From Terriglobia bacterium (GTDB taxonomy: Bacteria > Acidobacteriota > Terriglobia > Terriglobales > Acidobacteriaceae): a stretch of DNA of 64,000 bases. Shown piece by piece: positions 10,291 through 16,253 of this stretch. The notes beneath the pieces are model-generated. The model had not been told where the DNA came from. It worked only from the letters and a program-made list of their open reading frames with translations, and made no database searches. The stretch lies in contig JAIQEU010000018.1 in the NCBI GenBank assembly GCA_020073665.1, positions 1 to 64,000 of the forward strand, written 5' to 3'. Each line of letters starts with the position of its first letter. Position 1 is the stretch's first letter. The translations under genes were made by a program, and so were the position numbers.

Positions 10291-12429
10291 TTAGTCCCCC
10301 GCGACCGGCTCTCCCATCTCGACATTGGTGCCGGGCGCAGGAGCAATCCCGCCATTCCCGTTGGTCGGAGCCAGCGCCCCGAGCGGAATAAACCCGTTCT
10401 CCGCCACCACCGGCTTCTCTTTCAGAACCACTTCGCGGTACAGCGCCGCCATGCGCGCGTTGTACGCCGGATCTTCTTTCTGCTTGGCGTCGCGCGCCCG
10501 CTTCTTCTCTTCCCCGGCATTCTTCGCGATCCCCAGTTTGTCCAGATCGTGTTGGATTTCGTTAGTCACGATCTCATCTTTCAGTACCAGCGAATGCGCC
10601 GTCGACTCCATCTTCACATTCTTGCCACCCGCAAAGATCTCATGCCGCCCGTGCTCCTCATACCACTTGGTGAGCGTCGCGGTCATGTGCATCTTCTCGA
10701 TAATGTTGCGCCAGCCCACGCCCGTGTTGTACGCGCAGAAGGAAATTTCTCCTTCTTGCGTGGCGTAAGGAATAATGCACTGCTCCGTCCGCCGGAAGTC
10801 GTAATTGAACAGGTCCTGGAACCACATCCCGGCGATGAACAGGAAATTCCACCGGTCCTGCCGCCGCTTCATCACGTCATCAATCGTCCGGTCCGGCCCC
10901 ACCTTGCCGTAGTTTTTGCCCGTAGCATTGAAGTTCTTATCAAACTTCTTCAAAAGATCCATCATCTTGAAATGCGTCGGCGACTGGAACGGATCGTAGT
11001 TCTTCATGAGGCACAAAGCCATCCCCACAATCGTCAGAAACTTCCCCCGCGCCGCATCATTGACTTTGGCAATATCCTTGGCCAACTGATCGCCCTTCAA
11101 GAAAGCCGTAACCGGCACCGCCTCCTTGGTCTCCTTGTCAATCATCACCGCCATCCCCGTCCCGCAATTCGGATGGCAACCGCAGGAGAGTTGGCCCCAG
11201 TCGTTTTTTACGTCGTTGACGTGCATGAGGTCGGCCCAGTCGGAGAAGGTTCCCATGAAAGAGATGGGGAACCAGTCGCGGGCGGGCTCGCCTAGGCCGG
11301 TTTGATTTTTTACGTCGTGGGCTAAGTGCGAGAGGGTGTAGCGCTGGGCTTGGCGGCGGTCGTCGGTTACGGCTTCGTCACGGCCGGTGAAGCTTACTGG
11401 TTGGAAACTGAGGAAGCCAATGCGCTTGGGATTGTCCAGCGCGAACTTGATGATTCTTCCTACCTGTTCGTTGTTGATGCCGTTTACGATCGTTACTACA
11501 GGAACAATTTCGACGCCTGCGTTGTGCAGGTTTTCGATGGCTTTTAATTTTACGTCAAACAGGTTGCCGACTTTTCTGTGGGCGTTGGCGGCGTTGCCGA
11601 TTCCGTCGAACTGCAGGTAGGCGTAGCGCATGCCGGCTTCGGCGGCTTGCTGGGCGAATTCGAAACTCTTGGCGAACTCGATGCCGTTGGTTGCAGCCTG
11701 CACAGAGTTGTATCCAACTTTGCGGGCGTAGCGGACGGCGTCCAAAAAGTACGGGCTCAACGTGGGCTCACCACCGGAGAACTGCACGCTCATCTGGCGG
11801 CGCGGTTTAATGGTGATGGCGTTGTCGAGCATGGTCTTGATTTCTTCCCAGGTCAATTCGTGGACGAAGCCAACCTGGTTGGCGTCCATGAAGCAGGGAT
11901 CGCACATCATGTTGCAGCGGTTGGTGAGGTCGATGGTGAGCACCGATCCGCGTCCGTACTTCACGGTCGAAGAGCCGTGATGGTGGAGCTTCTCGTCGTT
12001 ATGGGCGACGATGTCGCGGCCGGGGAAAACCTCTTCCAGGTGCTGCGAGAACTCGGTGTCCATGGACATGACATCTTCAAAGTGGCCGTGGGTGGGGCAG
12101 TCCTTGACCATGAGGATCTTGCCGTCACGCTCGATGATCTGGGCCTTGATCTCGCCGACCTTTTCGTTCATCAGAACTTCGTAGGGCAGCTTGCCGTCGA
12201 GAATCTGCTGGCGAATTTCGGGGACACACTTGGGGCAAAGCGAGTCAGTGGTGCGAGGCCAGCCGAGCGGCGGCTTGGTCTTCTGATAAGACTTGAGTAG
12301 TGGCTTGTCGGACCATTTGGGCGTAGGCGACGGGTTCTGCTTAATGCGGTTGAGTCCGTTGAAAACAACCCATGCGCCTTTGGCGGCAACGGTGACGGCT
12401 TTTTCCACATACTTTACGGGCTTATGCAT
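10291..12429 (-). CDS. Radical SAM protein of the tetraether/membrane-spanning lipid synthase-like group (candidate)
   Basis: 712 aa from ATG 12429; the frame extends upstream to 12537 but that part translates a repeat-like inverted sequence. The radical SAM cluster motif CNMMCDPC (CxxxCxxC) is near residue 171, followed by SGGEPTLSP. N-terminal to it are extra cysteine motifs, LCPKC near 63 and CPTHGHFEDV near 111, and further cysteines (SCGCHPNCG) lie after the barrel. This arrangement, together with the length, is what I recall for the MJ0619/Tes-type enzymes that couple lipid tails in archaea and for their bacterial relatives, proposed to make membrane-spanning iso-diabolic acid lipids in Acidobacteriota. 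The radical SAM call is certain; the lipid role is inference. The gene stands alone. Confidence 0.8.
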   Translation of the reverse strand: MHKPVKYVEKAVTVAAKGAWVVFNGLNRIKQNPSPTPKWSDKPLLKSYQKTKPPLGWPRTTDSLCPKCVPEIRQQILDGKLPYEVLMNEKVGEIKAQIIERDGKILMVKDCPTHGHFEDVMSMDTEFSQHLEEVFPGRDIVAHNDEKLHHHGSSTVKYGRGSVLTIDLTNRCNMMCDPCFMDANQVGFVHELTWEEIKTMLDNAITIKPRRQMSVQFSGGEPTLSPYFLDAVRYARKVGYNSVQAATNGIEFAKSFEFAQQAAEAGMRYAYLQFDGIGNAANAHRKVGNLFDVKLKAIENLHNAGVEIVPVVTIVNGINNEQVGRIIKFALDNPKRIGFLSFQPVSFTGRDEAVTDDRRQAQRYTLSHLAHDVKNQTGLGEPARDWFPISFMGTFSDWADLMHVNDVKNDWGQLSCGCHPNCGTGMAVMIDKETKEAVPVTAFLKGDQLAKDIAKVNDAARGKFLTIVGMALCLMKNYDPFQSPTHFKMMDLLKKFDKNFNATGKNYGKVGPDRTIDDVMKRRQDRWNFLFIAGMWFQDLFNYDFRRTEQCIIPYATQEGEISFCAYNTGVGWRNIIEKMHMTATLTKWYEEHGRHEIFAGGKNVKMESTAHSLVLKDEIVTNEIQHDLDKLGIAKNAGEEKKRARDAKQKEDPAYNARMAALYREVVLKEKPVVAENGFIPLGALAPTNGNGGIAPAPGTNVEMGEPVAGD

Positions 12430-12752: not shown

Positions 12753-13319
12753 TCAGCCGCCGGCAGCGTTGCGTACCTTCTCAAACAGTTGGCGGTCGAT
12801 CGTCGCAAATGCGAAATTATCGCCATCGCCGATGTAGCTCTCTGGACGGACGAGTTCCATCTGTTCCCAAAACATATCGATCCACTGTTGCCGTTTGTAA
12901 GCTTCTTGCTTGATCACATTCCCGTCCGCCTGCGATCCCGCTGCGGTTTGTGCACCGTCTAGCTCTAGCTGGACGGACATCGGCTCAAGTGTGAACGCGG
13001 GGTAATCTATGAAAGCTTCTGGAATTTCAGGTGTTGTTGGGGAAGCGAACACATACCACTCATCGTATTGATCGTGAGGAAGGTCGGCAACTGAATCCAC
13101 ACGAGGACGCATTGCCAGTCTCCCATATTCCTGCCACCCCAGCTTCACCTCCGCCTCAGTGGGCACAAGCGGGCCGGAATCAAAGAGGCTGACGACTAGG
13201 CACTTACCCATCACAACTTCGGGGCAGGTTTCGAGCAGGGCATGAAGGTGAAATCGTCTTGACACCAACCAGTGGTAGGCTCCGTACTGACCCGATGATG
13301 GCGTTACAAGACTAGTCAA
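12753..13319 (-). CDS. Hypothetical protein
   Basis: 188 aa, no signal peptide. It is acidic and aromatic-rich, with words such as HDQYDEWYVFASP and QQWIDMFWEQMELVRPESYIGDGDNFAFATI. I do not recognise a family. Its composition and its position beside a toxin-tail-like fragment are compatible with an immunity-type or other accessory protein, but nothing in the sequence proves this. Confidence 0.55.
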   Translation of the reverse strand: MTSLVTPSSGQYGAYHWLVSRRFHLHALLETCPEVVMGKCLVVSLFDSGPLVPTEAEVKLGWQEYGRLAMRPRVDSVADLPHDQYDEWYVFASPTTPEIPEAFIDYPAFTLEPMSVQLELDGAQTAAGSQADGNVIKQEAYKRQQWIDMFWEQMELVRPESYIGDGDNFAFATIDRQLFEKVRNAAGG

Positions 13320-13760: not shown

Positions 13761-13880
13761 ACAATTCTAAAGGCTCTGAACAGCCGCCGAAGTATAACTC
13801 AAAACCATGTCGGGGGTGCCCCACTTCATTCGCGGTTTTTGCGAATGAGTGGGCGCGGTCGCAATTGGATCGCGACACTG
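13745..13880. repeat. Partial, diverged copy of the 273-bp MITE-like repeat
   Basis: It begins with GCCGGGTGCCCCACACAATT and matches the first half of the full repeats, including the TTCATTCGCGGTTTTTGCGA hairpin, then diverges. Confidence 0.7.
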
Positions 13881-13961
13881 GTCACAGACAGAATCCCACC
13901 TCTATGCATACGCTGAGCGGGTGCCTCAAGGATTGCATCGTATCTACGGCGTGCACCACCT

Positions 13962-14234
13962 GCCGGGTGCCCCACACAATCCCGGGCACACTCAAAGAGC
14001 CGCCGAAGTATAACTCAAAACCATCTTGGGGGTGCCCCACTTCATTCGCGGTTTTTGCGAATGAGTGGGTGCAGTCGTAATCGCGTCGCAATGCCGGTCG
14101 AGCACAATCGATTGGGGCGGCGAAGTAATGCATTCCTCCCCCCAGGAAAGTCCAGAAATGGGAGAGAGTCGCCCACTCATTCGCAAAGTACGCGAATGAA
14201 TGGGGCACCCCCGAGATTGTCCGGGGCACCCGGC
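13962..14234. mobile_element. MITE-like element, full copy 1 (273 bp)
   Basis: The ends are imperfect terminal inverted repeats: the left end GCCGGGTGCCCCACACAATC and the reverse complement of the right end agree at about 19 of 22 positions. A longer internal inverted repeat surrounds ATTCGCG...CGCGAAT. It has no coding capacity. A copy of the same length, identical apart from one base I noticed, lies at 15085-15357. Confidence 0.75.
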
Positions 14235-14377
14235 ACAGGATTCTTCCCCATTTTCTTCGGCGAAATCATGTTCAATTTCGTGACGGATTCAGGGAAGCAG
14301 TTCAACCCGGACAGAGATGATAGCGAGGGGTTCCCCTATTCGCTGTCTCCTCTCATTTTTCACTGAAACGTGCAATG

Positions 14378-15046
14378 TTAATTGGTAGGTCGCTTGAGGG
14401 GATGTGTTTTCCGGCTCGTCACCGATAGCAAGTAGTCTGGCAACTCGGCCATTCTGTAGAGCTTCTTGCCGATAACCGAACTGGGGCTCTCTACTCTGAA
14501 TTCACCAATCCAGTTTTCAACCGAGTCCTCTCCAAGCACTTGGTCAAGATATAGCGAGACAGCCCGTAATGCCGAATCGCGATCGGAACGTGAAAGCTGA
14601 TCATCGACAACGACCAAGTCAAGTCTGCCACTCTGACTTTGCTCCAAAGGAACGAATTTCCATTCTATCGTCTCAAAGACTTCACCGCTGTCCGGCATTC
14701 GGACAACGCCTGGAGCGGGCCGTGAGGGCCGCGCAGAGTACAGTTCCCACGTTCCTAAACCGGCCGGTGCTAGACCAATCATGAGTTCAGCAAGCTCCCG
14801 AAGTCGTGGGTTGCCTTCTCCAGATATGGCAAATAGGTACGGTTTATTCTTGCCGGGGCCTATTTCCCAAGCGAGTTCCGGCTCAATTCTATCGAGTTCT
14901 CGATTGACTTCCGCGGCAAGCTCTTCCAAAAAACCAGCAGAATATAAGCCTTTGAGCCTCTCCGCGTTAGCAGCAAACCAACGCCAGAATCGACTGATGG
15001 CCTGACTTGAGGATTGTTCACTGGTTCTAGTGGCCACTGGCTGCAT
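14378..15046 (-). CDS. Hypothetical protein between two MITE-like copies
   Basis: 222 aa from ATG 15046, preceded by GAAGGGA; the frame remains open further up only because it reads through the repeat. It starts with a conserved-looking FWRWFAANAERLKGL segment and continues with EPELAWEIGPG, LFAISGEGNPRLRELAELMI and WELYSARPSRP. I recall this pattern from a widespread family of short cytosolic proteins of unknown function that often lie in toxin-immunity or accessory neighbourhoods. No membrane or signal segment. It is flanked by direct 273-bp repeats and next to toxin-tail debris, which suggests acquired DNA. Confidence 0.65.
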   Translation of the reverse strand: MQPVATRTSEQSSSQAISRFWRWFAANAERLKGLYSAGFLEELAAEVNRELDRIEPELAWEIGPGKNKPYLFAISGEGNPRLRELAELMIGLAPAGLGTWELYSARPSRPAPGVVRMPDSGEVFETIEWKFVPLEQSQSGRLDLVVVDDQLSRSDRDSALRAVSLYLDQVLGEDSVENWIGEFRVESPSSVIGKKLYRMAELPDYLLSVTSRKTHPLKRPTN

Positions 15047-15084
15047 TCCCTTCAGTTCGATACCACACCCTAAGTGCGCATCCG

Positions 15085-15357
15085 GCCGGGTGCCCCACAC
15101 AATCCCGGGCACACTCAAAGAGCCGCCGAAGTATAACTCAAAACCATCTTGGGGGTGCCCCACTTCATTCGCGGTTTTTGCGAATGAGTGGGTGCAGTCG
15201 TAATCGCATCGCAATGCCGGTCGAGCACAATCGATTGGGGCGGCGAAGTAATGCATTCCTCCCCCCAGGAAAGTCCAGAAATGGGAGAGAGTCGCCCACT
15301 CATTCGCAAAGTACGCGAATGAATGGGGCACCCCCGAGATTGTCCGGGGCACCCGGC
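15085..15357. mobile_element. MITE-like element, full copy 2 (273 bp)
   Basis: Same length as copy 1 and essentially identical (A for G within AATCGCATCGC), in the same orientation, on the other side of the 222-aa gene. The 3' 162 bp is tandemly duplicated immediately downstream. Confidence 0.75.
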
Positions 15358-15519
15358 AGTCGTAATCGCATCGCAATGCCGGTCGAGCACAATCGATTGG
15401 GGCGGCGAAGTAATGCATTCCTCCCCCCAGGAAAGTCCAGAAATGGGAGAGAGTCGCCCACTCATTCGCAAAGTACGCGAATGAATGGGGCACCCCCGAG
15501 ATTGTCCGGGGCACCCGGC
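15358..15519. repeat. Perfect tandem duplication of 162 bp of the MITE-like element
   Basis: 15358-15519 repeats 15196-15357 exactly as far as I can compare by eye. It ends with the CACCCGGC terminus and is followed at once by the truncated DUF1801-like gene end. Confidence 0.85.
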
Positions 15520-15520
15520 T

Positions 15521-15715: not shown

Positions 15716-15917
15716 ATTTCGCAAAGAACGCGGAATCTAGAATGGGGCACCGGACAAGCGGGCCGAGTAGCTTCATCGCAGGTCCCGGCCAGATCTCCTC
15801 CCATAAGCCGATGCCGGCACCCGCCCCTTGCAAAAAACGCAAGGAGCGGGGCACCCACGGAATCTTTTTTCTGAATTATTAAGTTCGGCGCTAGGGGTGG
15901 GCCACCCGCCTACTCTG

Positions 15918-15992
15918 GGGATGACAACGTGGTGGGGACAGGTCAACACCCCCGCCCAAGCAGAGCTTGAGCGGGGCACCCTCGGGAGTCGG
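15918..15992. repeat. 75-bp direct repeat, copy 1
   Basis: It begins GGGATGACAACGTGGTGG and contains the CCCCGCCCAAGC...GCTTGAGCGGGG hairpin and CACCCTCGGGAGTCGG. It differs from copy 2 at about three positions. Confidence 0.8.
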
Positions 15993-16154
15993 TGTGATTG
16001 ACGGGGCGGGGGCGGTAGGCAAGTCCCCGCCCTGTCGCTCCAAAAGCGGGAGCGACAAGGACGGGGCATCCGCAAGACGAAGGCATCTCGCGAAGAAGAA
16101 AGTCACACCTTAGGTCGCTGTCGACTCCGCTCAGGGTTGGCTCTCGCTACGCTC

Positions 16155-16229
16155 GGGATGACAACGTGGTGGAGACAGGTCAACACCCCCGCCCAAGCGG
16201 AGCTTGAACGGGGCACCCTCGGGAGTCGG
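16155..16229. repeat. 75-bp direct repeat, copy 2
   Basis: Same length and orientation as the copy at 15918; about 72 of 75 bases identical. It ends just downstream of the stop of the minus-strand endonuclease-like gene. Confidence 0.8.
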
Positions 16230-16253
16230 AATGAATTGCCAGGACGGGCTCGG

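Follow-up and report, generated by a model that had tools for sequence, protein, structure and literature searches.

Which enzyme joins the lipid tails of Acidobacteriaceae is the question raised by a radical SAM gene in the window, the whole 64,000-nucleotide stretch of DNA analysed here. Iso-diabolic acid makes up 11.8–30% of the fatty acids in Edaphobacter isolates (PMC11354219) and 27–49% in Occallatibacter and relatives (PMC12935467), and at least a quarter of the fatty acids in most measured Acidobacteriaceae, the isolate genera being placed in the sampled family by inference from locus titles. It is also the likely building block of brGDGTs, which serve as worldwide proxies of past temperature and pH. 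The first-pass annotation attributed acidobacterial membrane-spanning lipids to Tes-like enzymes, an idea already in print: a role in brGDGT or iso-diabolic lipid synthesis was proposed for acidobacterial Tes homologues in 2022 (PMC8941075, PMC10087280). Specifically, Zeng 2022 proposed that bacterial Tes homologues make brGDGTs, including that of Edaphobacter aggregans, a maker of iso-diabolic acid and brGDGTs with one Tes homologue (32% to archaeal Tes MA_1486; PMC8941075). Bacterial Tes homologues are still described as unconfirmed (PMC11868695), and Solibacter usitatus has two with no detected iso-diabolic acid (PMC10087280), so the presence of a homologue alone does not predict the lipid. 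While the general Tes-homologue idea is known, the new part is a subfamily without one of the Tes clusters and its pairing with canonical Tes; no description of either was found in the literature searched.

A Tes-family radical SAM protein

The gene (10,291–12,429, minus strand) encodes a 712-residue Tes-like radical SAM protein, hereafter type A, delimited by its ATG start and by homology searches. The start was fixed at the ATG at 12,429, and an upstream TTG was discarded, because all 36 aligned relatives share Met1. The Pfam domain matches (Radical_SAM, 1.6e-18; PF23545, "HMPTM N-terminal zinc ribbon", 1.2e-13) and 80 distinct full-length relatives of 76–92% identity argue against a chance reading frame, and the nearest relatives come from soil Acidobacteriota labelled Terriglobales, Acidobacteriaceae or Candidatus Sulfotelmatobacter. 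The motifs CPKC, CPTHG and CNMMCDPC, noticed in the first pass, are all exact in the translation, at residues 65–68, 111–115 and 172–179, and the extra downstream cysteines mentioned with them correspond to C416, C418, C422, C551 and C565, which are invariant in the 36 relatives. The Tes/MJ0619-like motif set claimed on this basis therefore holds for the named motifs and the C-terminal cysteines and fails at one point, the N-terminal [4Fe-4S] motif of Tes being absent.

Sequence and structure comparisons lead to Tes/GDGT-MAS (MJ0619), reportedly the subject of Lloyd 2022 and Zeng 2022. The best curated family is NCBIfam Tes (NF045702), which matches at 320.4 bits over model positions 2–483 of 486, short of its equivalog cut-off of 450 bits. 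Among solved structures, phmmer retrieves Methanocaldococcus jannaschii (Mj) Tes (7TOL, E 4.1e-62) as the only strong match, with MoaA next at 4e-6. In line with this, Foldseek with the AlphaFold core finds 7TOM at E 6.6e-24 and the next family at 8.1e-7, and VIA-align of that core gives Z 20.0 over 420 residues at rmsd 4.0 for Tes and Z 14.3 over 239 residues for MoaA. By these four methods, the homology to characterised Tes spans the full core. The AlphaFold model of the full protein is weak (mean pLDDT 59.8), and the core-only model has a mean pLDDT of 68.1 and a pTM of 0.78. Because confidence in the core-only model is too low in the loop that replaces the N-terminal cluster and in the C-terminal ligand region, the metal sites were judged by alignment and not from modelled cluster geometry.

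Canonical acidobacterial Tes (type C; frames of 511–579 aa in the reference set) belong to the same family and phylum and are ~35–39% identical to type A; the four tested all score 523–619 bits, above the 450-bit Tes cut-off, and type C retains the CPxxCGLCxxH cluster that type A is without. In trees with plasmid TrsS-like proteins as outgroup and a single archaeal row (Mj Tes), types A and B come out as a single clade (100/100) within the Tes family, with two canonical acidobacterial Tes as closest neighbours, and a clade of canonical Tes and Mj Tes that excludes A and B is rejected (AU p 0.0041). The branching order appears less sure than Tes-family membership, because the A/B stem is long and the archaea are represented by a single sequence, so that long-branch effects are possible. 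Taken together, structure, sequence, curated family and trees place type A with Tes, as the first-pass annotation had proposed, and not in an unrelated radical SAM subfamily. Judged by sequence, type A is a Tes-like enzyme of a distinct acidobacterial subfamily, set apart because the N-terminal cluster ligands are gone, an N-terminal helix and a C-terminal extension are added, and the score is 320 against 450 bits. The E. aggregans homologue of Zeng 2022, known here by description, is very probably a type A orthologue, because type A is the one Tes-family gene in an Edaphobacter genome (L109); in the excerpted text of that paper on this homologue, a lost cluster goes unmentioned.

Metal sites and terminal additions of type A

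Residues were mapped onto Mj Tes in an alignment of 115 type A proteins, four further relatives (two type B and two deep-branching A, giving 119 A/B sequences in total) and 13 canonical bacterial Tes of type C, with residue roles taken from PMC9433317; the 7TOL chain numbering equals Mj + 20, by which the Met and Tyr fall at 439 and 459 as published. All features below lie on the minus strand. The rubredoxin-type iron site consists of CPKC (residues 65–68; 12,226–12,237; Mj Cys9 and Cys12), with Cys in 115/115 type A, 4/4 further relatives and 13/13 type C, and of CPTHG (111–115; 12,085–12,099), which aligns with Mj Cys33 and His36; the CPKC–CPTH spacing is 42 residues in type A versus 20 in Mj Tes. 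CNMMCDPC (172–179; 11,893–11,916) is, by motif, Pfam and alignment, the CX3CX2C of the radical SAM [4Fe-4S] cluster, and GGEP (219–222; 11,764–11,775), another radical SAM motif, is unchanged in Mj Tes and in every type. FQPVSFTGR (342–350; 11,380–11,406) aligns with Mj Gln268, Ser271 and Arg275, which have 5'-dAH-contact and active-site-loop roles (PMC9433317).

The ligands of the C-terminal [4Fe-4S] site are retained as well. Specifically, CGCHPNC (416–422; 11,164–11,184) contains Cys422, equivalent to Mj Cys338, together with two extra cysteines, CIIPY (551–555; 10,765–10,779) supplies Cys551 and Tyr555 (Mj Cys455 and Tyr459), FCAYN (564–568; 10,726–10,740) supplies Cys565 (Mj Cys470), and Met535 (10,825–10,827; 115/115 in the alignment) matches Mj Met439, the labile ligand of this cluster. 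From their conservation, we infer that Mj Cys338, Cys455 and Cys470 are the three cysteines of the C-terminal cluster. Setting aside one or two sequences that are gapped or odd, types A, B and C all keep the rubredoxin ligands, CX3CX2C, Met439, Tyr459 and the C-terminal cysteine trio. Few positions are unchanged between Mj Tes and all three types, and most of these are metal ligands or belong to radical SAM motifs.

At the N-terminal [4Fe-4S] site, the ligands Cys73, Cys77, Cys80 and His83 occur in 13/13 type C proteins, and the three cysteines are retained in none of the 119 A/B sequences aligned. Cys73 is replaced by K, H or T, Cys77 by His (115/115 and 4/4) and Cys80 by Ser, so that the CxxxCxxC..H of Tes becomes an HxHGS...GRG loop in 119/119. 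In the window's protein this loop is HNDEKLHHHGSSTVKYGRG (143–161; 11,947–12,003), which aligns at the ligand position, has no Cys and includes the invariant His151; H149, H151, G152 and S154 are all invariant in the 36 relatives. Type A is thus predicted to keep two auxiliary metal sites out of the three in Tes and to have lost the N-terminal [4Fe-4S] ligands. The first-pass annotation had staked its assignment on additional cluster sites, and the alignment bears this out for the rubredoxin-type iron and for the C-terminal cluster ligands with Met and Tyr, and contradicts it for the N-terminal [4Fe-4S] cluster. Additionally, three substitutions near the active site mark the A/B sequences in the alignment (Mj Asn108 to Asp, His440 to Trp and His458 to Pro) and could reflect another substrate or reaction for type A. 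Mj Arg210 aligns with a variable site, and an invariant Arg285 lies one residue off.

Overall, type A and Mj Tes (MJ0619, 7TOL/7TOM) are ~27% identical and have in common the whole-core fold, the radical SAM cluster, the rubredoxin-type and C-terminal cluster ligands, Met439, Tyr459 and the FQPVSFTGR loop, whereas the N-terminal [4Fe-4S] ligands are found only in Mj Tes, and type A has ~56 additional N-terminal residues and a C-terminal extension. The N-terminal addition carries an amphipathic helix (residues 3–27; 12,349–12,423), identified by AlphaFold, with a pLDDT of about 88–92 over the first 20 residues, and by hydrophobic moment, which is 0.49 for residues 3–20, a value that 0.3% of shuffles attain; the moment is similar across the subfamily, where it averages 0.45. 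Such a helix was not found at the N-termini of archaeal and canonical bacterial Tes, and in type A it may serve as an anchor to the membrane surface. The C-terminal extension (600–712; 10,294–10,632) runs past the Tes core in the alignment, is variable and is modelled by AlphaFold with low confidence.

Distribution, pairing and proposed function

Type A is close to universal in its family. In the phylum sample, a homologue at E 1e-40 occurs in 162 of 297 genomes, with a strong match to the window's protein in 34/34 same-family genomes; in the family sample, a Tes-family gene, mostly type A, occurs in 141 of 150 genomes and a gene over the Tes cut-off in only 22, and a few genomes have only the latter or only fragments. 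The window's genome has type A as its single Tes-family gene (next match 52 bits), and among the 12 genomes with titled loci, 11, those of Edaphobacter and Acidipila rosea included, likewise have one such gene. Only a minority of the family carries canonical Tes, so among Tes-family genes type A best matches the near-constant iso-diabolic trait, and it is the best genomic candidate for iso-diabolic acid synthesis in Acidobacteriaceae. Near-universality in a family of iso-diabolic-acid makers agrees with this role, but would likewise be expected of any core gene, which counts against the coupling reading. As a near-universal and usually sole Tes-family gene, type A is a single deletion target.

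Where canonical Tes is present, the two genes can be neighbours. In 10 same-family genome regions (L173–L182), from at least six genera, they lie on one strand 0.3–11 kb apart, with type A upstream of canonical Tes in all ten; these regions were selected since both genes are visible on one contig, and in the other two-gene genomes they are on separate contigs. The tree shows matching groupings for the A and C members of the paired regions, suggesting that the two genes are inherited together, and the common ancestry of these loci limits the number of independent cases. The neighbourhood suggests, rather than proves, a process in common. RlpA before the pair and MutY or a DUF4440 protein after it recur in the paired regions, and across type A loci only upstream RlpA and downstream MutY recur, in some; no conserved lipid-gene neighbour of type A was found in 80 related loci.

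By analogy with Mj Tes, the most likely function of type A, and in our judgement a probable one, is to join iso-C15 acyl tails into iso-diabolic acid. The host is bacterial rather than archaeal, so the tails are presumably fatty-acyl and not phytanyl. The iso-methyl ends of two iso-C15 phospholipid acyl tails would be joined tail to tail to give this membrane-spanning C30 diacid. SAM would be cleaved by the CNMMCDPC cluster and the 5'-deoxyadenosyl radical would abstract an H atom from the terminal methyl group; the activated tail would be kept as a C–S bond on the C-terminal [4Fe-4S] cluster (Cys422/551/565, with the labile Met535), and once the other tail had been activated by a second SAM, the C–C bond would form. 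Type A would function without the N-terminal surface [4Fe-4S] cluster and might be held at the membrane by its amphipathic helix. If active, it would show that one of the four Tes metal sites is dispensable for chemistry, the roles of these sites having been left open in the structure paper (PMC9433317).

The proposed coupling has to be weighed against other roles. Type A might carry out a different step in making membrane-spanning lipids (ether-tail coupling, a second cross-link or chain methylation), with an Mss-type enzyme making iso-diabolic acid, which we consider unlikely. Mss of Thermotoga, reportedly the subject of Sahonero-Canavesi 2022, has its proposed product class, tail-to-tail coupled diacids, in common with type A, the two being compared by description only. 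It is a separate enzyme, validated by expression in E. coli (PMC11604127; PMC13274423) and reported to have Tes catalytic architecture (PMC13274423), and the T. maritima genome, which carries it, gives no match to the Tes model at E 1e-20. With its 29 radical SAM loci, the window's genome leaves room for an Mss homologue, and both the A/B substitutions near the active site and a PlsA/Ger-like ester-to-ether gene pair (1015 and 448 aa; G000:C54) in that genome, through which ether lipid forms are possible there, fit another step as well. Against this, type A is the sole Tes-family gene of that genome, its C-terminal coupling cluster ligands are intact, and it is almost universal in an iso-diabolic-rich family in which PF09989, the PlsA/Ger-type domain that by itself does not identify Ger/PlsA, occurs in only 8 sampled genomes.

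It is highly unlikely that type A is a class D type radical SAM methylase or TrsS-like protein whose Tes likeness reflects common ancestry only. The PF23545 zinc ribbon, the methyltransferase gene adjoining the plasmid relatives and the first name of Mj Tes, said to have been pterin methylase, count for this role, as does a TrsS model (NF045646) score of 209.9 bits, which is, however, far below the cut-off of 490; no conserved methyltransferase neighbour was found in the window and 80 loci, type A falls inside the Tes family in trees and preserves Met439, Tyr459 and the ligands of the C-terminal cluster. We give hardly any credence to type A acting only with canonical Tes, as partner subunit or helper: the paired loci and matching A and C groupings would fit such a role, but type A occurs without canonical Tes in most same-family genomes, including the window's, and retains its own SAM and coupling sites in the alignment. 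Building on tail coupling by type A, we propose, as a possible if doubtful extension, that type A is a separate coupling branch which lost its exposed N-terminal cluster as an air adaptation and acts on iso-C15 phospholipids with ester-linked tails, while a canonical Tes next to it, where present, acts on ether lipids; between them they would set the balance of ester and ether forms among soil iso-diabolic lipids and brGDGTs.

Related loci and window surroundings

Type B (L138, L139) is a second copy without the N-terminal cluster, ~52% identical, beside type A in genomes of other acidobacterial families. Shorter Tes-family frames of ~520–560 aa, scoring 325–338 bits in same-family genomes (G420:C143, G420:C251, G373:C161, G411:C177 and G369:C2), are possibly a fourth type. 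A search of viral contigs with the type A protein gave no relative, and 11 weak, partial viral matches to the Tes alignment were set aside; radical SAM proteins on viral contigs L155–L165 weakly resemble (23–33%) the N-terminal half of Tes. Plasmid matches to type A are only 22–30% identical TrsS-like or other radical SAM proteins. TrsS-like radical SAM genes adjoining a methyltransferase gene occur on plasmids of haloarchaea and Mycolicibacterium (L151–L153), with DUF547 and peroxiredoxin/redoxin genes as further neighbours in the former and CcdA and disulfide oxidoreductase genes in the latter.

The PlsA/Ger-like genes overlap (L172, 7,087–10,134 and 10,107–11,453, plus strand), encode BadF-type ATPase and DUF2229 domains and form a candidate ester-to-ether system. 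In L173–L182, type A and canonical Tes are often separated by an oppositely oriented sortilin/BNR or DUF4139/carboxypeptidase-regulatory-domain gene. Within the window, a 188-aa ORF (12,753–13,319, minus strand) with no Pfam match adjoins the type A gene. Repeated intergenic DNA at 13,779–15,520 and 15,910–16,234 is a source of spurious ORFs; it contains a 285-nt unit at 13,951 and 15,074 (98% identical), with a partial third copy at 15,236, as well as 105-nt units and inverted repeats around GGGGTGCCCCACTTCATTCGCG.
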